The position numbers and the translations under genes were made by a program. Positions 42,290 through 64,000 of a stretch of DNA of 64,000 nucleotides are shown here, one piece after another. The notes beneath the pieces were generated by a model. That model saw only the letters and a program-made list of their open reading frames with translations, did no database searches and had not been told where the DNA came from. The stretch is taken from positions 48,019 through 112,018 of the forward strand of contig JAQGNS010000189.1 of NCBI GenBank assembly GCA_028291705.1. Direction: 5' to 3'. This DNA comes from Nevskia sp. Its GTDB lineage: Bacteria > Pseudomonadota > Gammaproteobacteria > Nevskiales > Nevskiaceae. Within the stretch, counting starts at the first letter, position 1; each line of letters starts with the position of its first letter.

Positions 42290-42837
42290 CCGTTTGGATA
42301 TTTGCGGTTAATCATTCGTCTGATTGCCTTCCGTTGGCTGTCATATTCGACCGGCGTTAAGCCACAGGTTTCCTGAATTTCAGCCGGCGTACACTGTTCG
42401 GCCACGCATAGAAGCACCATCTGCGCCGGCTCATTGCCCTCGAAGGCGTCAGACAGAAGACGCAAACCCTGTTCCGCCGCCGCCTCACGCATGACATCGC
42501 GGCTACTGGCGGGATCGAATTTTAGTCGCCCATCCGCGTCTTCCTCGCTCAAACTGTCCCGCCGCCCCTGCCAAGGGGAGGCAAGTTTTGCACTCGCGAT
42601 GCTCCTGATTGCGCCGTAGAGGAAAATCATGACATCTGTACCACGGGGACATCTCCTGGTGCCCGCCAGCGCCGCAACAAGCGCCTCCTGAACCAAGTCG
42701 TCGGCCTCGATTCCCGAGCCAAACGAGTAGCGGACGGCGATTTTAAGGAGCCGGACTCTGTCAATTTTTGACAACTTTTCAAGAGCTTGCCGAATTTCGA
42801 CGACGCCGAGAACTGGCTCATCCGCATCATCCTCCAT
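42277..42837 (-). CDS. Sigma-70-like (ECF-like) RNA polymerase sigma factor
   Basis: SGIEADDLVQEALVAALAGTRRCPRGTDVMIFLYGAIRSIASAKL (region 2-like); ...CTPAEIQETCGLTPVEYDSQRKAIRRMI (region 4-like). Confidence 0.75.
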   Translation of the reverse strand: MEDDADEPVLGVVEIRQALEKLSKIDRVRLLKIAVRYSFGSGIEADDLVQEALVAALAGTRRCPRGTDVMIFLYGAIRSIASAKLASPWQGRRDSLSEEDADGRLKFDPASSRDVMREAAAEQGLRLLSDAFEGNEPAQMVLLCVAEQCTPAEIQETCGLTPVEYDSQRKAIRRMINRKYPNGWQP

Positions 42838-42885
42838 TTCAAATCCCCTATTGGACGCACCCCTGTAGGCGGGCCAAAGGCCCTG

Positions 42886-42916
42886 TTGCGGACATTTTTT
42901 TCCCGGTTGTCCGCAA
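42886..42916. promoter_or_regulatory. Inverted repeat TTGCGGACA-N13-TGTCCGCAA in divergent intergenic region
   Basis: Perfect 9-bp arms. Confidence 0.5.
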
Positions 42917-42931
42917 GCGACGGTTTGCCCT

Positions 42932-42945
42932 GCCTATTAATAGGC
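42932..42945. promoter_or_regulatory. 14-bp perfect palindrome GCCTATTAATAGGC in divergent intergenic region
   Basis: Read directly. Confidence 0.5.
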
Positions 42946-43014
42946 GGATGCTTGCCGTTCTGCATCCTCACGCTACAGCAATAGGTACGAACCAACTACT
43001 AAAGGAATCACAAA

Positions 43015-46478: not shown

Positions 46479-46493
46479 AAAATTGGAGGCGTT

Positions 46494-47636
46494 GTGAAAA
46501 TCGGACTTGCGCTCTCTGGGGGCGGGACTAGGGCTGCTATTTTTCATCTCGGCGTTTTGCGGCGTCTGGCATTAGACGGGCGACTGGAACAGATTGCATG
46601 CGTTTCGTCTGTGTCCGGCGGAAGCATCGCCATTGCTCTCGTCATGTCCCATGCGGGAGTAAAATGGCCCACGTCCCAAGAATATCTAACGTCAGTTTAT
46701 CCAGAATTAAGAAACCTTCTCTCAAGTAGGGACTTATTCTCTGTCGGGGCCATCGCAGCATCGCCTTTGCACTGGCATAGAGTTTTTACAAACAGAGCAA
46801 GAATTGTTGCTGATTTTTTGGAGAAGCGATGGCAAGTAAAGGGCGACTTAATTGAGCTTCCTGACTCACCTCGGTGGCTGATCAACACCACTTGCATCGA
46901 AACGGGGAAAAACTGGCGCTTCAGCAAGATGGAAATGGGTGACTGGGTTTTTGGAAAGCACTATCAGCCTCCATTCTCCGTGGCAGAAGCTGCAGCTGCG
47001 TCTGCTGCGGTACCTTATGTAATTGGCTCACTCGCCTTCAAATTACCAGTCGAAGGTTGGTATGAGACAAATCCCGGAACAAAGGAGCCCCTTGGCCGGA
47101 AGGCATTGCCGTTTCGAAAAGTAAATCTATGGGATGGAGGTGCTTACGAAAATCTAGGGCTTGAACCCCTATACAAAATTGAGCAAGGGATGATCAACTG
47201 CGATTGTGTGCTGGTGAGCGACGCCTCCGGCGGACTGCCGCCAGTAGGCGGGTCATCCCTAATCAAATTGCTGAGGGGGCAGCTATCGTCTCCACGCCTC
47301 TTCGATATTTCAAGCGATCAAATCCGTTTCTTGCGCAGCCGAATGTTTGTCAGCGCCTTGACTAGGGGTGAAGCCAAGGGCGCTTTTATTCGAATGGGAA
47401 ATTCTGTCCGAGATATAGACATTGCGTGCAATAGGCTGCAGGCTCCATCCCATTACGCCGCATTTCAATCAGATGCGGATGCTCAATTTGCTCTTAAGCA
47501 TCCGACTACGCTATCGGCGGTTACGGCACATGAATTCGAACGCATTGCAAGGAACGGATTCGAGATAGCTAACGCAACCATCAACGCATATTGCAAAGAA
47601 CTTAATCTAAGCAAGCAGATATGGGAGGCCCATTGA
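46494..47636 (+). CDS. Patatin-like phospholipase
   Basis: IGLALSGGGTRAAIFHLGVLRRL, ACVSSVSGGSIAIAL, LWDGGAYENLGLEPLY. Confidence 0.9.
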   Translation: MKIGLALSGGGTRAAIFHLGVLRRLALDGRLEQIACVSSVSGGSIAIALVMSHAGVKWPTSQEYLTSVYPELRNLLSSRDLFSVGAIAASPLHWHRVFTNRARIVADFLEKRWQVKGDLIELPDSPRWLINTTCIETGKNWRFSKMEMGDWVFGKHYQPPFSVAEAAAASAAVPYVIGSLAFKLPVEGWYETNPGTKEPLGRKALPFRKVNLWDGGAYENLGLEPLYKIEQGMINCDCVLVSDASGGLPPVGGSSLIKLLRGQLSSPRLFDISSDQIRFLRSRMFVSALTRGEAKGAFIRMGNSVRDIDIACNRLQAPSHYAAFQSDADAQFALKHPTTLSAVTAHEFERIARNGFEIANATINAYCKELNLSKQIWEAH

Positions 47637-48703
47637 TGGACGCCCCCTGTACAGAAACATCCCCCGTCGAAACTGCCGATCTTGCGAACGCGGGAGCGCG
47701 CGCGATGTTCCAAAATGATCTTGGCGCAGGCGGCGATACAAACGCCTTTAAGCCGTGGGATCCCGCAATGCCGCAACTCCCGACCGGGCCTTTTCGTTAT
47801 AAACGACGGTCCTCTCTCAACTCGCAGCTGGGACGGACTAGTCGCAAAACGAAGCCGAACCCCGTGCGCGTAGCTGTTCGCCGATTTCTGGCATTTATGA
47901 GCACGACTAGCGCGTCGCAGAAGCGATACCTGTTTTCAGCGTTGCTTTGGGCGATGGTGATCGTCATTCACCTGACTCCATTGAGAAATGACCCGACTTG
48001 GGCCAGTGTTACTCACCTGGCGCTGATCGTATGGCTACTCGCGATGGCGTTGGATGGCGTGCGGGTCTACGAGAGGATCAAGGCTACAACGGTTGGCAAT
48101 TGGGTGATCTGGGGCTTGGGTCTGGCGTTGGGCAACTTCCTGGTGGTAACTGCCGCACAAGAAGTAGCAGTCATCACGAGTGAGGATCCGAGCAAATTTC
48201 CCCACACAGTCGCCATGGTGGCTTTACTAGAGGTCCCGCAGCTGACGATCGTCGTTTTGATCTTGATCACCGTGCCCTGGGTGGTGTTCGGATTTCTCGG
48301 GCTTATGCACGAATTCTCGCCGGAATTAAAGCTGCTCTGGTTCGACAAGCCTGAGCCGCCAGCGCGCACTGAACCCTATGCTATACCTTCCAAGGTAATT
48401 CGCTTCGCAAGCTTCACCGCCTTGCTCATCTATATTGGAATCAACTGGCAGCACGGCATACCGGGGTACGATGCATGGGTCAAGCAGCGTGCAGAAGGAT
48501 TCCTGTACACATTTGAGATGTATACAAAAAGCGCTTGTGTTGCGGCCCAGGGACGGCACCATACCCTAATTGGCGACGCCAAGGTTCTTATCGGAACGGA
48601 AAACAAGGGTGTCTATGCATTCAGCTCCGTAGAATGCAAAGCAGAGGCGCCGAAGAAGATGACTCTAAGCCCGTTGCCATCGGACCAAAGCCCGACGCCG
48701 TAG
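47636..48703 (+). CDS. Multi-TM membrane protein, last gene of the MBL/E2-E1-JAB/patatin operon
   Basis: TGATG overlap with the patatin stop; about five hydrophobic segments and a C-terminal soluble tail. Confidence 0.75.
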   Translation: MDAPCTETSPVETADLANAGARAMFQNDLGAGGDTNAFKPWDPAMPQLPTGPFRYKRRSSLNSQLGRTSRKTKPNPVRVAVRRFLAFMSTTSASQKRYLFSALLWAMVIVIHLTPLRNDPTWASVTHLALIVWLLAMALDGVRVYERIKATTVGNWVIWGLGLALGNFLVVTAAQEVAVITSEDPSKFPHTVAMVALLEVPQLTIVVLILITVPWVVFGFLGLMHEFSPELKLLWFDKPEPPARTEPYAIPSKVIRFASFTALLIYIGINWQHGIPGYDAWVKQRAEGFLYTFEMYTKSACVAAQGRHHTLIGDAKVLIGTENKGVYAFSSVECKAEAPKKMTLSPLPSDQSPTP

Positions 48704-48824
48704 GTCATCTACTCAGTGCTCGTGCGGCCGACGCCGCAAGATAACTTACTCGATGATTATGCCTTGCTCCGCTAGGCGCGCCATATCGCCTAGCGGAGTA
48801 GGCCAATTGATTACGTTCGTCCCG

Positions 48825-49037
48825 CTACTTTTTCTCGACCAAAAGCGAAGTGCTGGGCGCCGGCGTCTCGTGAGCGGAGTCAAGCGCCATCTTGCTTTGC
48901 GGAAAAGGTGGTCGCGGCTGCGGTGCCGCCGCCGATTGCTGTGACTGATTCTGGCCCGGCGTAGGGGGGGGAGCCGGAACGGGAGCTGCCTGCGCCCCAT
49001 TTGTAGACTGATCGCTCTGGTTGGTTTGATTGCTCAT
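48825..49037 (-). CDS. 70-aa low-complexity Pro/Gln/Ser-rich protein
   Basis: MSNQTNQSDQSTNGAQAAPVPAPPPTPGQNQSQQSAAAPQPRPPFPQSKMALDSAHETPAPSTSLLVEKK; GAGGATA upstream of ATG. Confidence 0.5.
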   Translation of the reverse strand: MSNQTNQSDQSTNGAQAAPVPAPPPTPGQNQSQQSAAAPQPRPPFPQSKMALDSAHETPAPSTSLLVEKK

Positions 49038-49084
49038 CGGCGTATCCTCGATCGCATATATTTAAATGACAATTTCTTGCTCTA

Positions 49085-49918
49085 CTACTTTTCCGCTTTG
49101 TCATCCTTTTTTGGAATCTTCTTCCCGGGAGCGGGTATCTCCATTGAATCGCGAGTCATAATGCTCTTCGGGAACGCAGGTCTTTGGAGCGGCGTCTGTG
49201 ACGAATCTTGGGCGGACTGATTCGACTGGACTGGTGCACCGGCAGCGGCGGGCGCCGGGATTGGTTGAGCAGGGGTAGTGTCGGTGGCTTGTCTGCCCTG
49301 GTCAGGAGAACTTTCCTGAGTTATCTGGTTGGACATCGATATATCCTGAACTACATGAATGGGGGACACTAGCTCAACAGGTTGAGCTTCCGATTTCGCT
49401 TTGGAGGTAACGAGGGCGTAGCGCGGGAGCGCAAGAATGATGGGCAACAACGAGAAAAATGCCAAGCGTTGAGCGAGTAACAAATGGTAAGTACGGCGCT
49501 CATTCTGCTTCACATTGTGGTCAACCGATTTTGCATACTCTTTGACGAGATTTAGCCGCGCTTCATCAAGCGCCTTATCGGGTTCCGGATGTTGTTCAAG
49601 ATAGTCTATAAGTGGCAGGGGCTGGGGAACCCTCATGTACTCGAAACCCCTGAGAAGAACGTAGGCAACAACCGTCGCCGAAAGCAACAAGATCAAAATC
49701 GCAACTGCCAAGGGAATCCAAAAGTAGCGCAGGTCCGAAGCTATCGCCAGGTGCCCTTTGAAGCCGCTTGCGAGGTAGACGACAATTCCAGAGAATGGAG
49801 TGATGGCAAGGGTGATCACGAAGCTGATTCGCTCCTTGATCCTGCTCGTGGCGTCCCGCTCGGCCTCATAGGCTGAAACGGAGTGCTCCAATATCCACTC
49901 GATCGTATCGGAGTTCAT
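49085..49918 (-). CDS. Multi-TM protein with disordered C-terminal tail
   Basis: Two N-terminal TM segments plus a third, then a PQS-rich tail MSNQITQESS...; tail resembles the 48825 ORF. Confidence 0.68.
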   Translation of the reverse strand: MNSDTIEWILEHSVSAYEAERDATSRIKERISFVITLAITPFSGIVVYLASGFKGHLAIASDLRYFWIPLAVAILILLLSATVVAYVLLRGFEYMRVPQPLPLIDYLEQHPEPDKALDEARLNLVKEYAKSVDHNVKQNERRTYHLLLAQRLAFFSLLPIILALPRYALVTSKAKSEAQPVELVSPIHVVQDISMSNQITQESSPDQGRQATDTTPAQPIPAPAAAGAPVQSNQSAQDSSQTPLQRPAFPKSIMTRDSMEIPAPGKKIPKKDDKAEK

Positions 49919-49989
49919 CTGTTCATCTGTCAGTACCGCTGGGAGTTCTGAAGCTGCTGCTTATAGTCGATCATTTTGGACCTTCCTGA

Positions 49990-50598
49990 TCACATTAGCT
50001 CCGCGAATTCGGCGAGCATATCGGCCGTAGTGGTCAGGCCCCAAGCCGTGCGCATTTCGGCAAGCATATCGTGCACGGTATAGGTGGGGTTCCGGCGCCG
50101 CTGCCGCGTTTTGCGCACCGCTTCGATCACGTCATGCAGATCCAGGCTGGCGGCATGCCGGAAGAAATCGTCTGGATGCTGGGCCTCGACGCCATGCCGG
50201 GCCAGCATTTCAGCCGGAAAGTCGTTCAGATTGTAGGTAACGATGACAGCGGCCTTGGAATAGATCGCGGCGGCCAGGACGTGGCGATCATGCGGATCGG
50301 GCAATGCCAGCGTAGGCTCCAGGAACTCGTAGCCTTCGACCAGGCAATCCGGCACCGCGGCATCCATCAGAGCACGTCGTCTGTCCAGGCGCAGGCGCTC
50401 CTGGTCCGCCCGCTCTCGTCCGTGCTGTTCCAGCATCGTTTCATAAACTGCGCGCACCCATTCTTCGTGGATGCGCGCAGTCCATTTCGCGCGATACAGC
50501 CCGGTCAAGGCCAAGTCGATGGCCAGACTTGTAAGGCCGGGCGAAAACAGGACATTGGCATCAAACAGCGCGGCGAATGAGCTTGTTCGGAAGTTCAT
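49990..50598 (-). CDS. PIN-domain toxin-like protein
   Basis: AALFDANVLFSPGL, LALPDPHDRHVLAAAIYSKAAVIVTYNLNDFP. Confidence 0.85.
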   Translation of the reverse strand: MNFRTSSFAALFDANVLFSPGLTSLAIDLALTGLYRAKWTARIHEEWVRAVYETMLEQHGRERADQERLRLDRRRALMDAAVPDCLVEGYEFLEPTLALPDPHDRHVLAAAIYSKAAVIVTYNLNDFPAEMLARHGVEAQHPDDFFRHAASLDLHDVIEAVRKTRQRRRNPTYTVHDMLAEMRTAWGLTTTADMLAEFAELM

Positions 50599-51070
50599 GC
50601 AAGCCTAGCTCGTGGTCGATGCGGCCAATTTCGTCCAGAGCGTCGCTGCTCCGCTGACGCTGCTGGTTCCGATACCTGAGGATATCCGCGGCCAGGATGC
50701 GACGATGCGTGCCCACCATATGGAACGGGATCGTGCCGTTTTCGAGCAGCTTCACCAGGAAGGGGCGCGACACGTTCAGCAGATCCGCAGCTTCCTGAGT
50801 CGTCAGTTCAGCGTGAATGGGCATCAAAGTCACGGCATTGCCGCGCGCAAGCTCGGACAGGGCACCTCTGAGCAAGCCCACAGCCAGAGCTGGAAGACTC
50901 ACTTCCTCATCGTTGCCACCGGGACCGAGCAAACGGATGCGCACCGGACCCGCTTCGCCATGAACAAGCCGGGCAAAGGCGCGACTTGCCTGTGCCGCCG
51001 CTTGAGCAACGGCCGGCTCGGGCAGCGACACCTCATCACGAGCTACGGGTTCTCTGAGTACAGCGTTCAT
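50561..51070 (-). CDS. Excisionase/HTH_17-type antitoxin partner of the PIN gene
   Basis: ELTTQEAADLLNVSRPFLVKLLENGTIPFHMVGTHRRILAADILRYRNQQ; overlaps the toxin start; AGGAGG Shine-Dalgarno before ATG 51070. Confidence 0.85.
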   Translation of the reverse strand: MNAVLREPVARDEVSLPEPAVAQAAAQASRAFARLVHGEAGPVRIRLLGPGGNDEEVSLPALAVGLLRGALSELARGNAVTLMPIHAELTTQEAADLLNVSRPFLVKLLENGTIPFHMVGTHRRILAADILRYRNQQRQRSSDALDEIGRIDHELGLHELPNKLIRRAV

Positions 51071-51121
51071 ATGAAGCCTCCTAGTGTCGTTTTGACACCA
51101 CCATTGGGCCGAGGATACGTC

Positions 51122-51149
51122 ATATCCGAAATAAGTGCAATATCCGAAA
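51122..51149 (-). promoter_or_regulatory. Two ATATCCGAAA direct repeats with 18-bp period upstream of the TA operon
   Basis: Copies at 51122-51131 and 51140-51149. Confidence 0.4.
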
Positions 51150-51301
51150 CAACTGTATCGATACCAAGATGTTGTAGTTTGGAGTCGCTTCAAGCCCAGA
51201 TATTGTGCGAAGTACCCTTGAAAAGAAGATTGGCCGTCCTCAGCGTCAATTTAAGGCGTCTGACGATGGCGTCCGCCCGACCGATGGGCAAGGGGTGCAG
51301 C

Positions 51302-51721
51302 ATGCCGTACCAGAATCTCCCCGACGGCCTTTTCCTCCTGAAAAGGCCGTCGCCGGAAAAGGGTGTCGAGCATTATGGAGTGCTCGATGTCGGTAATCGC
51401 TTTGGACTCCCTGAGGCCGACGGAACTCACCCAGTCGTGGCCCACCAAACGCCGCCATCAGTGCGGTTCGACTGGCTCCAGGACACCGGTACCTGGCAGA
51501 TCGTTGGTCAGGTCACTGACGAAGAAACTGCCATCGCCCGGCTCGCCGTGGCCTTGTCCACGCCCGACTACAACTTGTTCGGCCACAACTGTGAGCACTT
51601 CGCCCGCTATGTCGCAATGGGAACCTGGGAGAGCACCCAACTGCAAGCGGCCGGGCTGATGCTCGGAGTCGCTGCGCTGACGGTGGCGTCGCTGCACAAC
51701 ACCAGGCAGCAGGGAGCATAG
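51302..51721 (+). CDS. LRAT/NlpC-P60-like (permuted papain fold) protein with C-terminal hydrophobic segment
   Basis: GVEHYGVLDVG...YNLFGHNCEHFARYVAMG (H...NCEHF motif); start inside the longer ORF at 50612. Confidence 0.72.
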   Translation: MPYQNLPDGLFLLKRPSPEKGVEHYGVLDVGNRFGLPEADGTHPVVAHQTPPSVRFDWLQDTGTWQIVGQVTDEETAIARLAVALSTPDYNLFGHNCEHFARYVAMGTWESTQLQAAGLMLGVAALTVASLHNTRQQGA

Positions 51722-51727
51722 AACCAC

Positions 51728-53077
51728 ATGCAAGAAGGACGTCTCGAAGATCTGTTGCTGGAGCCCCAGGAACGGCCCCACGTTGAAATTAAGGAATGGC
51801 TCGACCTCAAGGACAACAACGATCACAAGGTCAAGCTGTCCAAGGGCATTTGCGCGCTGGCCAATCATGGCGGCGGCCACGTCATCATTGGTCTGCGTAA
51901 GGGTGACGACGGACAATACCAGGAAGCACCCGGCCGGCCCGGTCAACTGGCCCGCTACGACACCGACACGATCAACCAGATCGTCGCAAAGTACATCGAC
52001 CCCGTCATCCATTGCGAAAGCCGAGTGGTCCGCAGTAATGAGAATGCTCCAGCATTTCCCATCATCACCGTGCCAGGCGGCCACACCGTTCCTCTGCGCG
52101 TGAAGAAGCAGAGTGCAAACGAGCAGGATGCAATCGGATATTACGTACGCAGACCCGGCCCCTGCAGCGAACAGCCCCAGACCGCGCAGGAATGGGATCA
52201 GCTGATCCGCCGCTGCGTGGCCAATGCGAAGGACGATCTGTTGAATCAGATCCGGCTACTCCTTGCCGGCGGGCCTTCGGCCGAATCCAAGCCGGACGAG
52301 GCCGCGCTGGTGCGGCAATGGTTCGACGCATGTATGGCCCACTGGCGCTCGCTGGCAAAGCCGCAACAGGGCCAGGAGCAGACCGCCGGCCCACACCTGC
52401 CGTTCGGGCACTACGCCGTGGGGTTTCGACTATTTGACCTGCCGGCCGAGGTCGGCGGCGCCGAACTGCTAAAGAGGCTGACCAACGGCGTGGTGAGGCT
52501 CACCGGATGGCCTCCGTTTTGGGTTCCTACCAACCGGCAGGAGATCAAACCCTACCCAGCTGGGGACCACATCGAATGTTGGATCGGATCGGACGGCCGC
52601 GATGATGCCGCCCACAGCGACTTCTGGCGCGTGTCCCCACGGGGAGAATTCTTCTTGATCCGCGGCTATCAAGAGGATACTTCGCTGATGCAGATGCACA
52701 TCGGCGAAGGCAGGCGCGGGTTCGACATCACCCTGCCAGTTTGGCGCCTCGGAGAAATCCTACTCTATGCAGCGAGCATGGCGCAGCAGCTGGGAAACCC
52801 TTCAGCCAAGGCCGTATTCCAGATCGAGTACACCGGCCTGGCCGCACGCCAGCTTGGAGCCTGGGGAAACACCCGCCGTCATATGCACGGAGGACAAATC
52901 GCGCGCGACGACACATTCCGTGCGGTCTTGACGGCCCAGGCGGACCAGATTCAGGACTCGCTCCCCGAGCTCGTGTCTCGGATCGTGTACCCGCTCTACG
53001 AACATTTCGATTTTGCGCAACCCACTCGGGCGCTGGTACCTGAGGAATTGCAGAGAATGATTCGACGAGAGGCGTAG
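51728..53077 (+). CDS. Schlafen AlbA_2-domain protein
   Basis: HVEIKEWLDLKDNNDHKVKLSKGICALANHGGGHVIIGLRKGDDG. Confidence 0.82.
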   Translation: MQEGRLEDLLLEPQERPHVEIKEWLDLKDNNDHKVKLSKGICALANHGGGHVIIGLRKGDDGQYQEAPGRPGQLARYDTDTINQIVAKYIDPVIHCESRVVRSNENAPAFPIITVPGGHTVPLRVKKQSANEQDAIGYYVRRPGPCSEQPQTAQEWDQLIRRCVANAKDDLLNQIRLLLAGGPSAESKPDEAALVRQWFDACMAHWRSLAKPQQGQEQTAGPHLPFGHYAVGFRLFDLPAEVGGAELLKRLTNGVVRLTGWPPFWVPTNRQEIKPYPAGDHIECWIGSDGRDDAAHSDFWRVSPRGEFFLIRGYQEDTSLMQMHIGEGRRGFDITLPVWRLGEILLYAASMAQQLGNPSAKAVFQIEYTGLAARQLGAWGNTRRHMHGGQIARDDTFRAVLTAQADQIQDSLPELVSRIVYPLYEHFDFAQPTRALVPEELQRMIRREA

Positions 53078-53111
53078 GACAATACTTTGCCGGCGGACCT
53101 AGGGGACAGTG

Positions 53112-54089
53112 ATGCTCGAAGACGAAGCGCACTCGATGACGTCGGAGCAGGAATTCGACTACTTCGCGGAACGGTATTCCGTAGCTTTCGTGCTGCTGGA
53201 CAAAACCTCAGACAAGCTGCGACTCGGCGATCCCAACCAGCGAGTATGTCGATACTGCAAAAAGGGGGCACCTGAGACGAGTTTCAAGAAGGTTGCGCAT
53301 ACCGTGCCGCACATGACCGGCAACAAATGGCTCACTTCTCTGGACGAATGCGACCGTTGCAACGAAATCTTCGCCGTACACGAAGACCACTTTGGCAAGT
53401 ATGCACTGCCGCTGAGAACACTGAGCGGGATTCGCGGCAAGAATGGGCTTCCGACCTTGAAGACTTCGTTGGGTCGCGTCGAGGCCACTGAGACGGGAGT
53501 AAACGTCAGCCACAATGCCGGCTCTCCGATCTTGGCTAGCGACGACGAGCGCAAGCAGCTGACCATTCGCGTTGCCCGGCACACCTACGTGCCGATGGGC
53601 GTCTACAAAAGCTTGGTGAAGATGGCCTTGGCGCTCATGCCGGCGGAGGAATTACCCAAGTACGAGTACTTTATTCCTTGGATCCTTGAGCGCGAGTATC
53701 GCGCCGAGTCGTGTCCGTTCTCGCCGCTCACTATGCTTGAACAGATCGCAACTTCCCGCCCGCGTGAAGCTGGAATCCGAATACTGTTGTTCAGGCGCAA
53801 TCCGGGGATACTTGACTGCCCCTCGTGTTGCTTTGTCCTGCTGTTCGGCAACATCCAATATCAGATCATCCTACCGTCGCCGGTCGAAGATGCCCACTTT
53901 GTCGGCAAGGAGTTTCCACCCCTGGTGTGGTTTCCAGTGCCCAATACGCCGGACCAGCGATTTGGTCCCAGCATTCGGCGCGTCCGTGACCTATCTTCCA
54001 GCCAGCCGGTCAGTGACGATGTGCAGGAAGCAATGTTCAGCTACGAGTCGATCATGCCGGTCCCCCCTCTGTCCGTGCCCGGCGATTAG
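53112..54089 (+). CDS. HNH endonuclease-like protein
   Basis: CRYCKKGAPETSFKKVAHTVPHMTGNKWLTSLDECDRCNEIFA. Confidence 0.75.
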   Translation: MLEDEAHSMTSEQEFDYFAERYSVAFVLLDKTSDKLRLGDPNQRVCRYCKKGAPETSFKKVAHTVPHMTGNKWLTSLDECDRCNEIFAVHEDHFGKYALPLRTLSGIRGKNGLPTLKTSLGRVEATETGVNVSHNAGSPILASDDERKQLTIRVARHTYVPMGVYKSLVKMALALMPAEELPKYEYFIPWILEREYRAESCPFSPLTMLEQIATSRPREAGIRILLFRRNPGILDCPSCCFVLLFGNIQYQIILPSPVEDAHFVGKEFPPLVWFPVPNTPDQRFGPSIRRVRDLSSSQPVSDDVQEAMFSYESIMPVPPLSVPGD

Positions 54090-54126
54090 AAACACGCCCC
54101 AGACTCATCTACCAGGAGCTAATACG

Positions 54127-54762
54127 TTGGATGCAGAAAAATACGTCCAGCCGAATCGCGAGTCGTTCGGGCAGGACCCCTTCGGCTACAGCGCCTCAGC
54201 CTGGCACAAGTGGGGGCTGGCGCAGACGATCTCCGGATTCGAGGTCGATATAACGCGCCCACCGACCAGTGATGAGCTGAAATCCCCTGTTCTCTGGCTT
54301 ACACAAGCGCACGCGCTGTCGGAGGCCGCTACAACCTTGTTACGCAATTCTCCCGATCTGCAACGGGTGCCAGACTTGCTGAAAGGCGTATGCGACTGCC
54401 AATACTGCGCCGTCGTGCTCATGCTGGTCGGATACAGCCTTGAAATATGCCTCAAGGCGATGCTCATCATGCAGAAGGGTGTTGCAACCTATACTAATGA
54501 TGAAGCCAAGCACCGCCATCACAAACTGGAGAAACTCTCCGAGTTCGTCCCCAATCTGAGCGCCAAAGACAAAGCCATTTTGAGAACTTTGACCCAATTC
54601 GTGATGTGGGCTGGCCGCTACCCGGATCCGGGATCGGGCCGCGAGGGCGACGCAGAAGACATCTTCGCCGTCTCGGAAAAATATCGCGTGTCGGCGTGCG
54701 AGCTGTTCGACCTTGCTTCCCGTGTCATGAGGTATTCGCGGCAAATCGCAGCAGCCCTGTAG
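54127..54762 (+). CDS. HEPN-like domain protein
   Basis: VVLMLVGYSLEICLKAMLIMQKG...HRHHKLEKLSEFV; TTG start with GGAG Shine-Dalgarno; ORF track extends artefactually upstream. Confidence 0.6.
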   Translation: MDAEKYVQPNRESFGQDPFGYSASAWHKWGLAQTISGFEVDITRPPTSDELKSPVLWLTQAHALSEAATTLLRNSPDLQRVPDLLKGVCDCQYCAVVLMLVGYSLEICLKAMLIMQKGVATYTNDEAKHRHHKLEKLSEFVPNLSAKDKAILRTLTQFVMWAGRYPDPGSGREGDAEDIFAVSEKYRVSACELFDLASRVMRYSRQIAAAL

Positions 54763-54835
54763 TGCCGCGGCAACCGCCGATGAAAAGGCCGGGCACGGCC
54801 GCCCGCATCGTTGGACCACGGTGGCCCTGGTTATT

Positions 54836-54869
54836 TTGTGGATCATGAATATCGATTCGTGATCCACAA
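54836..54869. repeat. Long inverted repeat TTGTGGATCATGAAT-ATCG-ATTCGTGATCCACAA between convergent genes
   Basis: 15-bp arms with one mismatch; no adjacent T-run. Confidence 0.7.
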
Positions 54870-54980
54870 CCAGGATTGTGGCGCACAGTTGATCCTCAAC
54901 TGTGAAAACGTGTCGACGGCATCAACATAACACCCGCTTCACGTCGATACGATGTTCTTCAGAATCAAAAAAAAATGTTT

Positions 54981-55895
54981 TCAGGGCCAACCGTAGTAAT
55001 TCTGTAAGGCCGTCGCCAACACACCACTCGCGACGCCAATTTCAACTTGCCAGGATGTCTCTACGGCTTTAGAAAACATTTTCTGGAGCCACGTGCGGAC
55101 AGATGGTCCAAATTTTTTTTGTAGGTGTTCGGCGCTTCCTTCATCTTTGGAAATAGCAGTTTCGAGTTGCACAATGTCTTCGTCCGGCACGTTCCAACGC
55201 TCGAGTTCTTTCTTCAGGCTGGCAATGTTGCCCTCCACCACCTTGTTTTGAATGGTCTGGACGTTGCTGTTGCCAACGACAATCGTCGTGTTGTGCCCGA
55301 AAATGGCGCTGTTAAAGAGGTTTTGCGCATCGAGCGAACTCTTCTTTTGAACCAATTCGTCGTCGTCCTTCACGTTGCCAACCCTCTCTTTCAGTTCTAG
55401 GATGAAATCTAGTAGCCGTGACCGAACTTGTACAAGAATCTGCGTGACATCCGTGATGCTAATTTGACACCAGGCACGTTGAATGCGATATCCATTTCCT
55501 AGTGATCTACCTAGCAGTGGGTTCGCCTCCATCGGAATCGGGCTTTCCAAGTGATTCTCAGCCTTGGACAGGAACTGTTCGAGTACCGCGAGCGACTGGT
55601 GCATCGGGGCATTTTGAAGGGATTCGCGGTATTCGGAATCCAGGTGCATCAGCGGTATGGGGTGCGAGTTAACTTGATAGGCCGGATTTGCCATGTTCGC
55701 AAGCACCTGCGCCGGCAGGATGCGATAGGCAGGCAAATTATCCTTGTCCTCGTATCCATTCAGTTCATGGTTTACCCATTCAACCAGCTCTTTATGGCCG
55801 ATTTTGTGGAGCAGAACCTTGGTCTTGAGTAGCGCAGCACTTAGCGAAGTGCTCTCGTCACTCAAAAGATCGACAAGCTCATCGACGAGCTTCAT
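54981..55895 (-). CDS. AbiTii-domain protein
   Basis: LVDELVDLLSDESTSLSAALLKTKVLLHKIGHKELVEWVNHELNGYEDKDNLPAYRILP. Confidence 0.82.
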   Translation of the reverse strand: MKLVDELVDLLSDESTSLSAALLKTKVLLHKIGHKELVEWVNHELNGYEDKDNLPAYRILPAQVLANMANPAYQVNSHPIPLMHLDSEYRESLQNAPMHQSLAVLEQFLSKAENHLESPIPMEANPLLGRSLGNGYRIQRAWCQISITDVTQILVQVRSRLLDFILELKERVGNVKDDDELVQKKSSLDAQNLFNSAIFGHNTTIVVGNSNVQTIQNKVVEGNIASLKKELERWNVPDEDIVQLETAISKDEGSAEHLQKKFGPSVRTWLQKMFSKAVETSWQVEIGVASGVLATALQNYYGWP

Positions 55896-55909
55896 TGCGC
55901 AGCTCCAGT

Positions 55910-56407
55910 TTATGTTTGATCGGTCAACTCGGTGCGCATCAATCCGACAAGGACGCGCAATTGTTCTTGCAGTTTCAGATACTCCGCTGATGCCGCCTCT
56001 TTATATTTTGCAGTAGGGTCCGGCGCTTGCAGCAGCACAATTGGGACACCGCCAACATCCATACGCCGTGGATTCGTAGCTGCATGAAGTCGGGACCAGC
56101 TTTCGAGCAGCAATGAAGTCTCTTCGTATTGTTTCGCTACGTCTGTAGAGCCCAATAAGTGAATACGGGCATTGGTCTTGGCGAATTCGTCAAACAGGCT
56201 GAACTTTTCCGCGGACAGAACCTGTTTCATTGCCCGCTCAAAGAGGATATACACATCTTGATACAGTTGCTCGACACTGGACCGGCGTTGTGTCTCCTTG
56301 GCAATTCGGCTTGCGCGGTCATCGGATGCGTTTCGCAACTTCCAAGCGAGAAGCGCGGAGACAAGCGCAAAAGCCCCAGCAACGCACGCGGTTACGATGG
56401 TCAGCAT
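55910..56407 (-). CDS. Membrane-anchored coiled-coil hypothetical protein upstream of abiTii
   Basis: N-terminal TM (MLTIVTACVAGAFALVSALLAWKL) then helical region. Confidence 0.6.
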   Translation of the reverse strand: MLTIVTACVAGAFALVSALLAWKLRNASDDRASRIAKETQRRSSVEQLYQDVYILFERAMKQVLSAEKFSLFDEFAKTNARIHLLGSTDVAKQYEETSLLLESWSRLHAATNPRRMDVGGVPIVLLQAPDPTAKYKEAASAEYLKLQEQLRVLVGLMRTELTDQT

Positions 56408-56446
56408 ACCGGCGGATTCTTGAGCATGAGGTTCTATTTCAGTCCA

Positions 56447-56486
56447 GCGAATTCGGCCAGCATGTCGGCTATGGTGGTGAGTCCCC
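56447..56486 (-). pseudogene. Relic of the 3' end of a PIN toxin gene
   Basis: Minus strand encodes GLTTIADMLAEFA, cf. GLTTTADMLAEFA of the intact PIN gene; 33/40 nt identical to 50003-50042. Confidence 0.7.
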
Positions 56487-56522
56487 TGGCGGACGATTAC
56501 GGTAGACGCATGGGACTTGAAA

Positions 56523-56960
56523 TTACAATGCCGAGATTGAAAGAACATGCTCGACGTGGTCGTCGTCGAGCTTGCCTTTGAGTTGAACGTACTGATTCAG
56601 CAATACGATCAGTCGCGCCTTTTTCTCCAACGGCAACTTCAATCGGCTCCTCGCCAGATGCTGTTCCACCTTGATGATGATCTCGGCCAGCAACTCGGGC
56701 TTGGTCGGCGTCTTGATGCTACGCGGATCATTTCCCGGTCCTGACAGCAGCCACACCGGATCGACGCTAAACATCTCGTACAACGCCTTGATCGCTTCGG
56801 CCGAAATCGTCCGCTCGCCGCGTTCGTAGTTCGAGTAGGCGCGGGGCGAAACCCCCAAGCGCTCAGCAAACTCCGGCTGCAGCAGGCGCGCCCTTTCGCG
56901 GACGGTTTTTAGCCGCTCACCGATCTCAATGTCGAATTGGTGTCTTGACAACATACTCAA
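56523..56960 (-). CDS. XRE family HTH transcriptional regulator
   Basis: ERLKTVRERARLLQPEFAERLGVSPRAYSNYERGERTISAEAIKALYEMF. Confidence 0.87.
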   Translation of the reverse strand: MSMLSRHQFDIEIGERLKTVRERARLLQPEFAERLGVSPRAYSNYERGERTISAEAIKALYEMFSVDPVWLLSGPGNDPRSIKTPTKPELLAEIIIKVEQHLARSRLKLPLEKKARLIVLLNQYVQLKGKLDDDHVEHVLSISAL

Positions 56961-57023
56961 ACGTGCGTATTACTAATCCCGAAGTTGCCTAGAGGGTATC
57001 ACATGGAAGTGGTCCTGGAAACC

Positions 57024-57058
57024 GGCTGCGCCCCCGCTGGACGTGGGGCAACGCAGCC
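57024..57058 (+). promoter_or_regulatory. Inverted repeat GGCTGCG...CGCAGCC (inner CCCC/GGGG) abutting the start codon of the mobilisation accessory gene
   Basis: Read directly; GGGG at 57045-57048 lies inside the stem at Shine-Dalgarno distance. Confidence 0.5.
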
Positions 57059-57433
57059 ATGAAGCACAACGTCTTCACCATCCGCCTGGCCCCGGAAACG
57101 GCGGTCCGGGTCACCCAGGAGGCGATGCGCCGCGGCATCACCCGGACGAGTTGGGCGGCGCATCTCATAGAGCGTGGTCAGGTCGTCGAGAGCCTGGAAA
57201 CGCTGCTACCGGAAGCGCTGGCATCGGCAGGCAAAGCGGCCGGCGGTCCCGCCGGCATCCCCTCGCGGGCCATGGAGCGCTTGCTGTTCGCCGCCTGCTT
57301 CTCCGAGGCCATACTCAAGAAGCTCAACGCAACTCTTAACCGCTCGTCCACCGAACTGGGCACCATCGCCGCCCAGGCACGCGACCAGGCGCTGGCGGAA
57401 ACCGCCGCGCTGATGAAGCCGGCGGAGGACTAA
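57059..57433 (+). CDS. Mobilisation accessory (TraJ/MobC/TrwA-position) protein
   Basis: MKHNVFTIRLAPETAVRVTQEAMRRGITRTSWAAHLIERG; directly upstream of coupling protein and relaxase. Confidence 0.55.
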   Translation: MKHNVFTIRLAPETAVRVTQEAMRRGITRTSWAAHLIERGQVVESLETLLPEALASAGKAAGGPAGIPSRAMERLLFAACFSEAILKKLNATLNRSSTELGTIAAQARDQALAETAALMKPAED

Positions 57434-57439
57434 GCGGCC

Positions 57440-59248
57440 ATGCGTAGCTTGCTCGTTCTCGTCGCCGCCGGCTTGGCTGCGGCGGCCCTGTACTTCGCCG
57501 TTGCCGCTTCGTGGGACGAGCTCGCGTACTGCAAGGCGGATGTGGTTGCCCTAGTGCGTCATGGATTGGCCCTTTCCTCAAAGCCCATCTTGGTGCGATT
57601 GGGCTCCGGCGACGTGCATCGGGTGAATGCCGGCGCTTTGGTGGCTTATTTCGACGGCCTCCCAGGATGGCGTGCCGGTTTGTGTCTGCTGATACTCGCC
57701 AGCATGTTCTGCGGCGGAATCGCCGCCTGCACGGTAGGGGCCATCTTTCCAGCCGTGTTTCAGCTGAGAGGCGGCCCTGAAAAGCACAAGCGCGGTGCAC
57801 TGCTGGATTCGGTCACGCCGCGCCTGTTCCGCGGGGGCACCCGTCAGATATGGATGCTGGGCGTGGCGCTGTCGGTACTAGCGTGGCTCTCCCTTCATCT
57901 CATCGGCGACGCGCATGCTGCAGGTGGCGGGCATCCACCTGACTCGGATGCACCGCTGCAGACCTTGCGCGCACTGGCTTGCGGGTATGGCCTGGCGTTC
58001 AGCTTCGCACTATGCGGTATGGGCAAGGGGCAGGAATCCCTGGTGCTCCGGCTCGGTCATGTTCCGATTCCCCGCCCGGCCGAACTGTTCCATATCCTGG
58101 TCGCCGGGCGCACCGGCGCCGGCAAGACCCAGGCGATTCAGCAGTTGCTGCGGCCGGTTCGGGCGCGCGGCGATCGCGGGTTGGTAGCCGACCCGGACGG
58201 CGGCTATCTGGCCCGGTTCGGGACCGAGTCCGATTGCCTGCTCAATCCCTTCGATCGGCGTGGCCTGCGCTGGAGCCCGTTCGCGGAAATCAGGGCGCCG
58301 TTCGACTACGACGTGCTGGCCAACGCCGCCATCCCGCAGGGCAATACCGCCAATGAAGAGGAATGGCGGCGTTTCGGCCGGGTACTGCTGGCCGCCACCC
58401 TGCGCAAGCTGCACGAGGACGGCCGCGGTTCCGCTCGCGAGGTCCTGCACATGATCAACGCCGCCAGCGATGAGGACTTGCGCAAGATGCTGGCCGACAC
58501 CAACGCGGCCGGCCTGCGCCGGCACGACGCCATGTTCCATTCCATCCTGGGCGTCGTCACCCCGCACATCCAGAGTTGGGAATACCTAGTTGAGCCGGAC
58601 GCGCAGCATCCTGCGTTTTCCGTTCGGGACTGGGTCCGCGAAGGGCGGGACTGGCTGTTCATGCCCTACCGGGATGACCAGCTTGAAGCGCTAAAATTCC
58701 TGATGGCGACCTGGATCGCCCTGGCGGTCGCTGAGGCGTTGTCCCTGTCGGAAGATCTCGGGCGACGGTTCTGGTTCGTGATTGATGAACTGGACTCCCT
58801 CGGCAAGGTAGCGTCCATGCGGCTGGCGGCCACCAAGCTGCGCAAGCACGGTGGAGTGATGGTCGCCGGCCTGCAGACGGTGGCCCAGTTGAGGGCGACC
58901 TACGGCCCGGACGAAGCACAGGTGCTGCTCAGCTCGCTGTCCAACAAGCTGATCCTGGCTATGGGCGACCATGAGACCGCCCGCTACTTTCAGGAAGAGT
59001 TGGGCCAGCATGAAGTCGAGCGGCGGCGGGTGACCAGACAGTCCGGGCGTTCTGGCGGCCGCGGCACCAGTTCGGCGACGAAATCCACGGAAATCGCTGT
59101 GGAGCATCTGGTGCTGGCTTCGCAGCTGCAAGGGCTGAAAGAGCGACGCGGCTATCTGCGGCGGGCGGGGGACGCCCAGATTCACCCGGTCGAGATTCCC
59201 CTGGTGCCGATGCCGTCGCGGATCGCTTCCTTTATTCCGGCGAGGTGA
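57440..59248 (+). CDS. TrwB/TraD/VirD4-like type IV coupling protein
   Basis: FHILVAGRTGAGKTQAIQQLL, FWFVIDELDSLGKVASMRLAATKLRKHGGVMVAGLQTVAQLRATYG. Confidence 0.92.
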   Translation: MRSLLVLVAAGLAAAALYFAVAASWDELAYCKADVVALVRHGLALSSKPILVRLGSGDVHRVNAGALVAYFDGLPGWRAGLCLLILASMFCGGIAACTVGAIFPAVFQLRGGPEKHKRGALLDSVTPRLFRGGTRQIWMLGVALSVLAWLSLHLIGDAHAAGGGHPPDSDAPLQTLRALACGYGLAFSFALCGMGKGQESLVLRLGHVPIPRPAELFHILVAGRTGAGKTQAIQQLLRPVRARGDRGLVADPDGGYLARFGTESDCLLNPFDRRGLRWSPFAEIRAPFDYDVLANAAIPQGNTANEEEWRRFGRVLLAATLRKLHEDGRGSAREVLHMINAASDEDLRKMLADTNAAGLRRHDAMFHSILGVVTPHIQSWEYLVEPDAQHPAFSVRDWVREGRDWLFMPYRDDQLEALKFLMATWIALAVAEALSLSEDLGRRFWFVIDELDSLGKVASMRLAATKLRKHGGVMVAGLQTVAQLRATYGPDEAQVLLSSLSNKLILAMGDHETARYFQEELGQHEVERRRVTRQSGRSGGRGTSSATKSTEIAVEHLVLASQLQGLKERRGYLRRAGDAQIHPVEIPLVPMPSRIASFIPAR

Positions 59249-59251: not shown

Positions 59252-61945
59252 ATGGCCCTCGCCAAGAACATCAGCGCCGGCCAGGCCGATCGTTACTACG
59301 ACAAGGACGACTATTACACCAAGGATGCGGCCGCGCCGTCGCAATGGCATGGCAGCGGCGCCAAAGCGCTTAGATTGAGTGGCGCCGTCAAACCGGAGGA
59401 CTTCAAGGCTCTGGTGCGAGGCGAATTACCCGATGGCACAACGCTCCACCGGGGCGGCAGCAATGTTCGCCGGGCGGGGACCGATTTCGAGTTCAGCGCG
59501 CCGAAGTCGTTTTCGATCCAGGCGTTGGTGGTGGGCGACGACCGCTTGGTCAAGGCGCACCAGCAGGCGGTGGCGGTTGCGCGGCAGCGGATCGAAGCGG
59601 TCATTGCCACACGCGTGACTAAGGCCGGCAAGACCACAGTGGAGTACACCGGCAGCGCTGTCATCGCCGAGTTCCTGCACACCACCAGCCGGGGCGGCGA
59701 CCCAGACCTGCACAGCCACGTTGTTGCCCTGAACATGACCCAACGGAAAGACGGCCAATGGCGCAGCGTCGACAACGAGGCGATGTTCAAGGAACAGCGC
59801 CTGATGTACCAGATTTACCTATCGGAACTGGCCAGGGCCGCGAAGGAGCTGGGCTATGGGATCACCACGGGCAAGCATGGAAACCCCGAACTGGCCCACA
59901 TCACCCGTGACCAGATCGAGCAATTCAGCAGCCGCGCGGTGGAGATCGAGGCACTGCTGGCCGCACAAGGCTTGACGCTGGAAACAGCGACGCCGAAGCA
60001 GAAGAAGGCGGCGACGATGAAGACGCGCCGTGCCAAGCAGAAATACGACCGCGGCGAGTTGGAACGGCGATGGCGCGAGCGGGCAGAGGCCATCGGCGTC
60101 AGGCGCTCGATTCCCGGAAGGGATGGACCTGACTCCGAAAACCGGAATCCCCGGAGCACCGGATTGCCGGACGAACGTGAGGCGGCGCGGGAGGCGATCG
60201 GGTTCGCCTTGGCTCATCTCGGTGAGCGGGAGGCGGCATTCGAGCGGGGGAAGCTGTTGGCGGTCGCCCTGCGGGAGTCGCGTGTTGTCAGCTATCACGC
60301 CATCGCGAACGAGTTGAAGCTACGGGAACGGTGGGGCAGCGTTATGGCGTCGCCGAACGGACGGAGGGTCACGACGCGGCAGGCACGCGACATCGAGCGG
60401 CGGATATTGGCCATCGAGAAGCGGGGCCGCGGTCATGTACGGCCAATCACTCCTGCAGATCAGGTGGCCCGTCATCTGGCCGAGCGGGATCTGAATGTGG
60501 GGCAGGCCGAAGCCACGCAACTGGCTGCGACCAGCGGCAACCGGGTGATCGGCATTCAGGGTCTGGCTGGCAGCGGCAAGACGACCATGCTGCGCACCTT
60601 TCAGGAAATCGCGCAGCAGAACGGCTATCACGTCATGGCTCTGGCACCCTCACATAGTGCAGTCCAAGCCCTCTCCAAGTCGGGCATAGAGGCCAAGACC
60701 CTGCAAAGTTGGCTGCTTGACCGGGAGGCTTCGGCGGCTCTGTCGAACCGGACGATTGTGGTGCTGGACGAGGCTGGTCTCGTGGGCAATCGCGCAGTGC
60801 TTGCCACGCTAGAGCGCGTGCGGGACCGCGGTGCGCGCATCATCCTCGTCGGAGACAAGAAGCAGTATGAGGCTGTCGAGGCCGGCCGTGCCTTTGCGCA
60901 GTTGCAGCAGCATGGCATGGCCACTGCGCAGATGACCCAGATGCTGCGCCAGCGCGACGGACGCCTGGCGCAGGCTGCGCGGCTGTCGGTCGATACCCCG
61001 GCGCAGGCGCTGGGACACCTTGAGGTGCGGGAGATCACCGATCCGGGAGAGCGCTATCGCCGGATCGCACAGGACTATGTCCGTTTGGATCCGGTGGAAA
61101 GGGGCAAGACCTTGATCCTGACCGGGACCAATGAGGCGCGCACGCAGCTCAACAACGCCGTACGGGTAGCGCTGACCGCAAGCGATGAGTTGGCCGGAGC
61201 ACGAACCACGATCCGCGTTTTCCAGCGCAAGGACATGACGGAGGCGGAACAGAAACGATTGGATCGCTACGCCATCGGCGACACGGTGCTGTTCCAGAAG
61301 GACTATCGGTCGATTGGGGCGGCACGCGGCGAAATCTACCGGGTGACCGGTATAGGGTTGGACGGGGTGCGTGCGGAGAGTGAGGACGATAAGGCGGTCG
61401 TGTTCGTGCCCGCGCAGGTGAGTGGCAAAGGTTTTACGCTGGGGAGGATCGAGTTGCGGGAAGTGGCGGCGGGCGAGGCGGTTAGGTTCACCGGCACCGA
61501 CCGGGCACAGGGCTTTAAGAACGGCGAGCGCGCCACGGTGGAGTCGGTTTCAGGAACGTCTCTCGTACTGGAGGCACCGGACGGGACGCGCAAGGCGCTG
61601 TCCACCGACCGAATTCTTCCATTGGAATACGGATACGCCGCCACTGGGCACAGTGCGCAGGGTCTTGGCGCCGATCGCGTGTTGATGGACCGCGATACCA
61701 GTGCGCCTACGACCAATCACCGCAGTTTCTACACCGATCTGACCCGCGCCAAACACGCCGTGGTGATTTACACGAATGATCGCCGCGGTTTACCGAAGGC
61801 CATTGTTCGTCAATCGCAGAAGACCACGGCCTTGGAAGTGGTGCGCGAACGCTCTAGGACGGAACGGACAGCACCGCCGCCGTCTCCTCAACACGGACGT
61901 TCCGCGCCTATTCCACAAGCCCCGCAACAACCGGCCGGACGGTGA
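59252..61945 (+). CDS. MobF-family relaxase/helicase (TrwC/TraI-like)
   Basis: N-terminal YYDKDDYYTKD...DFEFSAPKSFSIQAL...GGDPDLHSHVVALN; helicase IQGLAGSGKTTMLRTF, VVLDEAGLVGNRA. Confidence 0.94.
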   Translation: MALAKNISAGQADRYYDKDDYYTKDAAAPSQWHGSGAKALRLSGAVKPEDFKALVRGELPDGTTLHRGGSNVRRAGTDFEFSAPKSFSIQALVVGDDRLVKAHQQAVAVARQRIEAVIATRVTKAGKTTVEYTGSAVIAEFLHTTSRGGDPDLHSHVVALNMTQRKDGQWRSVDNEAMFKEQRLMYQIYLSELARAAKELGYGITTGKHGNPELAHITRDQIEQFSSRAVEIEALLAAQGLTLETATPKQKKAATMKTRRAKQKYDRGELERRWRERAEAIGVRRSIPGRDGPDSENRNPRSTGLPDEREAAREAIGFALAHLGEREAAFERGKLLAVALRESRVVSYHAIANELKLRERWGSVMASPNGRRVTTRQARDIERRILAIEKRGRGHVRPITPADQVARHLAERDLNVGQAEATQLAATSGNRVIGIQGLAGSGKTTMLRTFQEIAQQNGYHVMALAPSHSAVQALSKSGIEAKTLQSWLLDREASAALSNRTIVVLDEAGLVGNRAVLATLERVRDRGARIILVGDKKQYEAVEAGRAFAQLQQHGMATAQMTQMLRQRDGRLAQAARLSVDTPAQALGHLEVREITDPGERYRRIAQDYVRLDPVERGKTLILTGTNEARTQLNNAVRVALTASDELAGARTTIRVFQRKDMTEAEQKRLDRYAIGDTVLFQKDYRSIGAARGEIYRVTGIGLDGVRAESEDDKAVVFVPAQVSGKGFTLGRIELREVAAGEAVRFTGTDRAQGFKNGERATVESVSGTSLVLEAPDGTRKALSTDRILPLEYGYAATGHSAQGLGADRVLMDRDTSAPTTNHRSFYTDLTRAKHAVVIYTNDRRGLPKAIVRQSQKTTALEVVRERSRTERTAPPPSPQHGRSAPIPQAPQQPAGR

Positions 61946-61975: not shown

Positions 61976-62428
61976 ATGTCTAGAAAATGGAGTGGAACGT
62001 TGCCGGCAAGCAGTTCGGTACGCCGCCGGAGATTGGCGGCCTCCGACTATGCTGAGGCCGCCGGGCAGCTCAGTCTTGAATTGACGCCGCCCGCTCGCGC
62101 TGCTGAGTCGCAGCTGATTAAGCGATCGCGGAAGGTCGGACCCAGGCCTCAACCGCAAATTCCCCAACGACTGCCAGCGGTTAGCGGAACTATTCCCCTT
62201 GTTAAGTACGAGGATCGAGCGGAAGTCCAGACGACCAGACCATCCGACACTATCCTGCGACTTCCGGCCGTTAAGGCGGCGACTGGTTTGAGCCGATCTA
62301 CTATTTATGACCGAATTGGCAAAGGAACCTTTCCAGCGCCAGTACCACTGGATGGGAATCTAGTTGGATGGTCAGCCTTTGAAATTGGAGAGTGGGTTCA
62401 GCGAAGAATTGAAGCACGGCGGAACTGA
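61976..62428 (+). CDS. AlpA-family regulator/possible excisionase with N-terminal extension
   Basis: ILRLPAVKAATGLSRSTIYDRIGKGTFPAPVPLDGNLVGWSAFEIGEWVQRRIEARR. Confidence 0.8.
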   Translation: MSRKWSGTLPASSSVRRRRLAASDYAEAAGQLSLELTPPARAAESQLIKRSRKVGPRPQPQIPQRLPAVSGTIPLVKYEDRAEVQTTRPSDTILRLPAVKAATGLSRSTIYDRIGKGTFPAPVPLDGNLVGWSAFEIGEWVQRRIEARRN

Positions 62429-62576
62429 CAAAACTGGCTAGTTGCTCGGTACGACGCGAGTCCGATGATGTCCGAATACAGCCGACCAAAAATTATTTCT
62501 TTTGTGGGGTGATTTGTGGGGTAAATCCTGGCGATCCTTTGAAAATCTTTTTAAAAATAAATAGATGTGAAGTGGC

Positions 62577-62599
62577 TTCGAGTCCTAGTCCCCCAGCCA
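62577..62599 (+). other. tRNA-Gln 3'-end fragment: candidate attR of the ICE
   Basis: TTCGAGTCCTAGTCCCCCAGCCA matches the T-loop/acceptor/CCA of a tRNA-Gln; the preceding bases (GTGGC) do not pair as a T-stem, so the tRNA is incomplete. Confidence 0.78.
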
Positions 62600-62603
62600 A
62601 ATC

Positions 62604-62635
62604 AAAAAGCCCCTGGCGCGAGCCAGGGGCTTTTT
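62604..62635 (+). terminator. Rho-independent terminator immediately after the tRNA fragment
   Basis: AAAAAGCCCCTGGC-GCGA-GCCAGGGGCTTTTTT. Confidence 0.92.
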
Positions 62636-62833
62636 TGTTTGTGGCGGCGAGTGTTTTAATCGGGCTCTGTACCCGATTATCTACCCTAGTGGCGCCGGTC
62701 CACAGATAGCCCACGAAGTCAGCATATCGTCAATCTGCTACTGTCAACGCAAGGTAAGAGCGGCATAAAACATTGCATTTGGCGAACTTCAGCTTCGGTA
62801 GGAAGTGCACAATAGAACGAGAGGATCGGACGC

Positions 62834-63715
62834 ATGGCCTTTTTGGGGATAGACCCTGACGGCGTACTGATGGCCGAGGGGCCGACCCACGGAGGTAGAA
62901 TCCTCTGGCCGCATCCCATCGTTACTCTGGCCACATTGATCCATAGCGACCTCGACCTTCAGAAGATCGAGATCGAGGCAAATCTCTACGCGGCGCCGCT
63001 GCTTTTCCGAGAAGAGTATTTCGATCCAGTGACCCGCATTAGGCGCGGACGACTTTATCGGAACCAGGGTAATCAGCCGTCTATGTGGAATGGAGTACAG
63101 GGACATCCCGGCGGTCAGATTCAGCAGCTCAATTTGTGCACGTACCAAGCGGCCCAGTGGCGCGACCTGGAAGGCGACAGACCAATCAGTCGAACTCGCA
63201 TCGCGCTAGGGACGCGCAATGCGTTTGGCTTGTGGTCGGTTGTAATGGTGGAGCGGACTACAGGCCGAACTGATTTGATCACCCTTCGCACGCAGTCAAC
63301 TTTTGGGTTGCTACCTTCCGCCGAAGAACTGGACGTCCCCGCTGACGCGCGTGGCGAAATCCAAAGGGCTATCGATGGTGCAGTGAACGCAGCCCATCAC
63401 CAGTTGTCCGACGCAACGGTCGATGCGTGTAGGCATGCGGCAGTAGCCGCGCTTGGCACTTGGCGGCTTGCGGCTGCTAGCGTCGGAGCTGAATATCACG
63501 ACCTGGGAAAATTGGTGAGCATTATTGAAAAGCTCTCCGATTCGCCGAGCGTAATAGTCAACTGCGGCCGCATACTTGCTCGACTTCACTCCAGAACAAA
63601 GCCTAATGAGCGCAAGCTTCGTGACTTGCGCCGTAACGAGGACGCAGACGGCGAAGCGGCAATTGCTGTGCTGGGACTATTGTTGCGCGAACTGCGCCCC
63701 AGTCCTTTGCCATGA
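62834..63715 (+). CDS. Hypothetical protein outside the element
   Basis: 293-aa ORF, MAFLGIDPDGVLMAEGPTHGGRILWPHPIVTLATLIHSDLDLQKIEIEANLY...; no domain recognised. Confidence 0.55.
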   Translation: MAFLGIDPDGVLMAEGPTHGGRILWPHPIVTLATLIHSDLDLQKIEIEANLYAAPLLFREEYFDPVTRIRRGRLYRNQGNQPSMWNGVQGHPGGQIQQLNLCTYQAAQWRDLEGDRPISRTRIALGTRNAFGLWSVVMVERTTGRTDLITLRTQSTFGLLPSAEELDVPADARGEIQRAIDGAVNAAHHQLSDATVDACRHAAVAALGTWRLAAASVGAEYHDLGKLVSIIEKLSDSPSVIVNCGRILARLHSRTKPNERKLRDLRRNEDADGEAAIAVLGLLLRELRPSPLP

Positions 63716-63827: not shown

Positions 63828-64000
63828 TCAATTCCCGATCTTTTCTCCAGCCAACGCCGGCGTATTGATCGGTAGCCGGTGTGCCTTGGTCGCCTGTTCG
63901 AACGAGTAACCCAGCGCCAGCAGCTTCGGTTCGCTGAAGGCGGGGCCGAAGAAGGAGATGCCCACGGGCAGGCCGCCGGTGGTGAAGCCGGCGGGCACGA
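63828..64000 (-). CDS. Amidase, C-terminal fragment (truncated by window edge)
   Basis: Minus strand reads VPAGFTTGGLPVGISFFGPAFSEPKLLALGYSFEQATKAHRLPINTPALAGEKIGN*, typical amidase-signature C-terminus. Confidence 0.85.
   Translation of the reverse strand, partial: VPAGFTTGGLPVGISFFGPAFSEPKLLALGYSFEQATKAHRLPINTPALAGEKIGN

Follow-up and report, generated by a model that had tools for sequence, protein, structure and literature searches.

A probable 110-kb ICE with catabolic cargo in a Nevskia tRNA-Gln gene

Transfer genes and cargo

The window analysed here is a stretch of 64,000 nucleotides from a Nevskia sp., corresponding to positions 48019-112018 of contig C362 (112,018 bases) in a draft genome of 614 contigs. 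Coordinates without a contig name refer to the window. Its centre holds a VirB-type T4SS operon on the + strand (23622-33216), in which VirB2, B3, B4, B5, B6, B8, B9, B10 and B11 were recognised by domain matches; VirB1 and VirB7 were not identified. The operon is followed on the same strand by a ParB-N-like protein (35555-37414), which is 65% identical to the product of a gene beside the integrase of a related element in genome G011, and by an ArdC-like antirestriction protein (37626-38825, PF08401/PF18818). The remaining transfer genes lie close together at the right, all on the + strand. The gene at 57059-57433 is assigned to the trwA position by location only; it has no Pfam hit and shows 50-61% identity in three congeners. 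Next to it are a TrwB-type coupling protein (57440-59248, PF10412, 7.7e-100) and a TrwC/MobF relaxase-helicase (59252-61945, PF08751, 8.7e-78), the latter with 65-68% identical relatives in three congeners. The last gene of the series, at 61976-62428, encodes an AlpA-family regulator (PF05930, 4.5e-15) that is likely an excisionase and has its counterpart at the corresponding place of the G011 element. The PF08751 relaxase, together with VirB3, TrbL/VirB6, VirB8 and CagX/VirB9, identifies the system as MobF with MPF_T, going by the MPF_T markers given in PMC3158045.

A candidate oriT region lies between an HTH gene and the trwA-position gene (56961-57058). It contains intergenic blocks partly conserved in four related elements and is unmatched in the related plasmid pPL2. 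A motif here resembling IncW nic sites was rejected as an oriT motif, being absent at the same place in pPL2. Directly left of the T4SS is a LuxR-type regulator with an autoinducer-binding domain (22180-22959), which may tie transfer to cell density.

The left third of the window (1-22109) is the right part of a catabolic block of about 65 kb that extends left to about C362:6574. The whole block contains efflux, oxidoreductase, P450, Rieske, FAD, aldehyde dehydrogenase, meta-cleavage-type and acyl-CoA genes as well as regulators. Within the window these include a ring hydroxylase, an extradiol-type dioxygenase, an FAA hydrolase, an acyl-CoA dehydrogenase, a DUF1329/YCF48/MMPL/DUF1302 set, an AMP ligase and regulators. 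For the two catabolic markers tested, relatives elsewhere in the taxonomic family are only 37-47% identical and therefore give no information on a donor. Two adjacent TetR-type genes in the block (1305-1973 and 2183-2848) are 81% identical over 83 nt at their 3' ends, a local duplication.

Between the ArdC-like gene and the relaxase cluster is a variable/defence region (41071-56548), where domain matches indicated an MBL-fold-like protein, an E2-E1-JAB fusion, a patatin, a Schlafen-type protein and AbiTii. The MBL-fold-like protein, the E2-E1-JAB fusion, the patatin-like protein and a membrane protein follow in succession at 43015-48703, with no recognised CD-NTase among them; this is a ubiquitin-like conjugation operon, possibly with a defence role. 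The AbiTii-family protein (54981-55895) lies near PIN, Schlafen-type and HNH genes. To the left of the window, at C362:2459-6179, a Cap4-nuclease/MC4/SMC-like trio fits Lamassu models and sits close behind an integrase. From left to right the full order is thus integrase, Lamassu/ABC-3C-like trio, catabolic block, LuxR-type regulator, VirB2-VirB11, ParB-like gene, ArdC, variable/defence region, trwA-position gene, TrwB, TrwC, AlpA and a tRNA remnant. No transposase was found among the element proteins scanned, a set that covers part of the small ORFs.

The tRNA-Gln remnant and the intact gene

The remnant, TTCGAGTCCTAGTCCCCCAGCCA, is a tRNA-Gln 3' fragment at 62577-62599 on the + strand. It is the sole match in the window allowing up to three mismatches, and shuffled sequences gave an expectation of 0 such matches. 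ARAGORN finds no tRNA gene in the window, so the sequence at 62577-62599 is a fragment. With the following AAT it forms attR (62577-62602, +), the displaced 3' end of tRNA-Gln(CTG), which is identical at 25/26 nt to the end of an intact gene at C362:606-631. Immediately behind it, a hairpin at 62604-62635 (+) has a fold energy of -26.7 kcal/mol (z = -5.15) and resembles a strong terminator. Its homologue stands behind the uninterrupted tRNA-Gln in the congener G001, and the hairpin is probably the native tRNA-Gln terminator. These results bear out the preliminary description, which had reported a tRNA-Gln 3' end lacking its 5' part and followed by a strong and presumably native tRNA terminator, with AlpA, relaxase, coupling protein and T4SS genes to its left, and with neither a second copy in 1-62576 nor an integrase. 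Likewise, our analysis found no second tRNA copy in the window and no integrase among the window proteins scanned.

When the complete draft genome was searched for its pattern, the remnant sequence occurred at two places only, the remnant itself and C362:606-628, in the same orientation and with one mismatch; no third copy of the tRNA end was found. The second place is the 3' end of an intact tRNA-Gln(CUG/CTG) at C362:555-628 (ARAGORN; Rfam, 60.3 bits), which lies 87 bp downstream of rpsI (C362:60-467). Beginning 186 bp after this tRNA, a tyrosine integrase gene (C362:815-2068) reads into the element; its product has an arm-binding, a central and a catalytic domain. The two tRNA ends form a 26-nt direct repeat with one mismatch, in the same orientation and 109,989 bp apart; about 2e-7 chance matches of this quality are expected in the contig. 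The mismatch falls at tRNA position 60, which is C in the intact copy and T in the remnant. No internal att copy is present on C362, where the best other match reaches only 21/32 nt.

The preliminary description had predicted an intact tRNA-Gln and a tyrosine integrase upstream of coordinate 1, and both lie about 47 kb upstream. It had also held that the element passes coordinate 1 and includes the catabolic cluster, and had named an attL between that cluster and virB2 as the finding that would speak against it; no attL-like sequence was found there. The catabolic cluster is thus enclosed by the two attachment sites. What had been predicted from 23 nt of a tRNA was borne out by the adjoining sequence.

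Empty sites, integrase relatives and a related element

An empty site is present in G001 (contig C344), where rpsI (protein 98% identical) is followed by an uninterrupted tRNA-Gln and then by a terminator like that of the remnant. The sequence to the right of the remnant, comprising the terminator and following bases, is 83% identical to G001 over 103 nt, and the left and right C362 flanks, when joined at the tRNA, are collinear with the G001 site. G003 is the closest sister at the tRNA-Gln locus, with 95.6% identity over the left 631 nt, and nothing that resembles an integrase or matches the element follows its tRNA. Its right flank differs from that of C362 and was not found in the source genome, and five relatives lack the ORF at 62834-63715. 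Consequently, past the first 100 nt or so nothing links the right flank to a shared native neighbourhood. The DNA behind the rpsI tRNA-Gln varies between species. In G007 (contig C4), the intact tRNA-Gln shares a longer stretch with a tRNA-Gln fragment lying about 27 kb further downstream (50601 and 77944), and the pair probably marks a different island inserted at this tRNA. At the right edge of the window, the last 127 bases (63874-64000) match the end of contig C228 without a difference, with amidase-like paralogues, and the chromosome may continue there.

Position 60 was considered as a marker of the host copy. The genus-wide T60 first suggested that C60 came with the element; this was abandoned, as G003 has C60 and no element. 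T60 may be element-borne, the crossover having taken place 3' of position 60; another possibility is that an older element left C60 as a scar. Neither position 60 nor the deeper right flank tells which tRNA copy is ancestral.

Relatives of the integrase occur at eight loci among the named genomes scanned. All six independent integrases with 59-68% identity and upstream DNA lie behind tRNA-Gln(CTG), about 195-250 bp after it, a count that omits a seventh locus of the group with at least 59% identity, on a short contig without the upstream tRNA region. The integrases of at most 45% identity that were checked are at tRNA-Leu, tRNA-Gly or tRNA-Glu, including those in the same taxonomic family (42-45%, tRNA-Leu) and a 36% identical relative at tRNA-Gly. 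For two of the tRNA-Gln integrase genomes and for G011, the first base of the remnant is at the T-loop position where the C362 remnant also starts. The T loop or T-acceptor junction is a known crossover subsite (PMC4383910).

The G011 element (contig C4) comprises tRNA-Glu, an integrase 37-38% identical to that of C362, the ParB-like gene, ArdC, T4SS, TrwB/C and AlpA; some 190 bp beyond alpA, 16 nt from the 3' end of tRNA-Glu recur. Most T4SS genes are 69-83% identical between the two and TrwB/C about 65-68%, with the relaxase at about 66-68%. The elements share the transfer backbone and the right-end order trwC-alpA-remnant. However, they differ in integrase and target tRNA, their T4SS orientations are opposite and they have no catabolic genes in common. 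The ParB-like gene adjoins the integrase in G011, whereas in C362 it lies 81 kb away, with the catabolic block and the T4SS in between. For this reason the catabolic block is read as cargo added to the backbone.

Interpretation and comparison with known elements

Read from its sequence, the window very probably holds the right 62.6 kb of an ICE of about 110.0 kb (C362:606 to 110594), of MobF/MPF_T type and with catabolic cargo, inserted in tRNA-Gln(CUG). This reading draws on the direct-repeat att sites, the intact tRNA, the terminal integrase at its target, the empty site in a congener and the conserved transfer genes (relaxase, coupling protein and VirB4-type T4SS), features by which an ICE is recognised. 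In the proposed mechanism, the integrase beside the intact tRNA would have recombined the attP of the element into the sole tRNA-Gln(CUG) gene, which lies behind rpsI, at the 3' end of that gene, rebuilding the full tRNA at the left end and moving the old 3' end and terminator to the right end (62577). For excision, the integrase and AlpA, the latter in a presumed role, would recombine the two repeats into a circle. TrwC would then nick an oriT close to the trwA-position gene, and one strand would travel by way of TrwB and the VirB channel to a recipient, where re-integration would again occur at tRNA-Gln. The catabolic and defence genes, lying between the repeats, would move along.

It is extremely improbable that the tRNA fragment is there by chance or is unrelated, with the catabolic cluster being ordinary chromosome. 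Older islands can leave tRNA fragments, but matches of this quality are hardly expected by chance in the contig (about 2e-7), an integrase sits beside the cognate tRNA and the terminator has its homologue in G001. It is somewhat unlikely that the boundaries are genuine and the element is a relic in which excision or transfer is dead. The difference at position 60 and the failure to identify VirB1 and VirB7 would fit such decay, whereas the integrase, relaxase, coupling protein and main VirB genes are all open frames with full domains. A composite history, which is compatible with the ICE reading, is unlikely: a non-conjugative island made up of the integrase, the Lamassu-like genes and the catabolic block would have inserted in tandem with an independent ICE, running from T4SS to AlpA, at one tRNA, with the middle att later lost. 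Integrases of the same subfamily do occur in loci without shared transfer genes, and the displaced ParB-like gene also points in this direction. However, C362 retains no internal att copy, and with two outer sites only, all 110 kb would still leave together on excision. Because these outer repeats are the only ones left, the catabolic genes would be taken along whatever their history.

Like the tRNA-targeting islands of Islander (PMC4383910), the C362 element has an intact tRNA, an integrase and a displaced 3' fragment in the same orientation that mark both ends; unlike them, it carries a conjugation gene set. The order of the trwA-position gene, trwB and trwC and the VirB2-11 components are those of R388/IncW-type conjugation. 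The best plasmid relaxase matches to its TrwC are annotated MobF/TrwC, with at most 38% identity among the best listed. In contrast to the R388/IncW type, this element is integrated at tRNA-Gln, has an integrase and AlpA, and its candidate oriT is unmatched in the related plasmid pPL2. Catabolic ICEs such as ICEclc and Tn4371 likewise unite an integrase of the phage type with genes for conjugation and a catabolic block; they are not known to share the target site or the relaxase type of the C362 element. Tn4371 is named in PMC3158045. Our literature search found no report of Nevskia ICEs or of tRNA-Gln catabolic ICEs. On this reading the element belongs to a kind already known, the MobF/MPF_T ICE at a tRNA 3' end, here with a large catabolic cargo.

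We tentatively suggest, as a possibility rather than a firm assignment, that MobF/MPF_T ICEs of the Nevskia lineage form a family in which the transfer core and the trwC-alpA-attR end are conserved and integrase modules (tRNA-Gln, tRNA-Glu) and cargo are swapped. In this host it would spread a degradation pathway of about 65 kb, perhaps controlled by the LuxR-type gene beside the T4SS. Both ends of the 110-kb element are fixed almost to the base. A large degradation cluster in this lineage thus appears, from the sequence, to sit on a self-contained mobile unit, and is better treated as transferable cargo than as a species trait.
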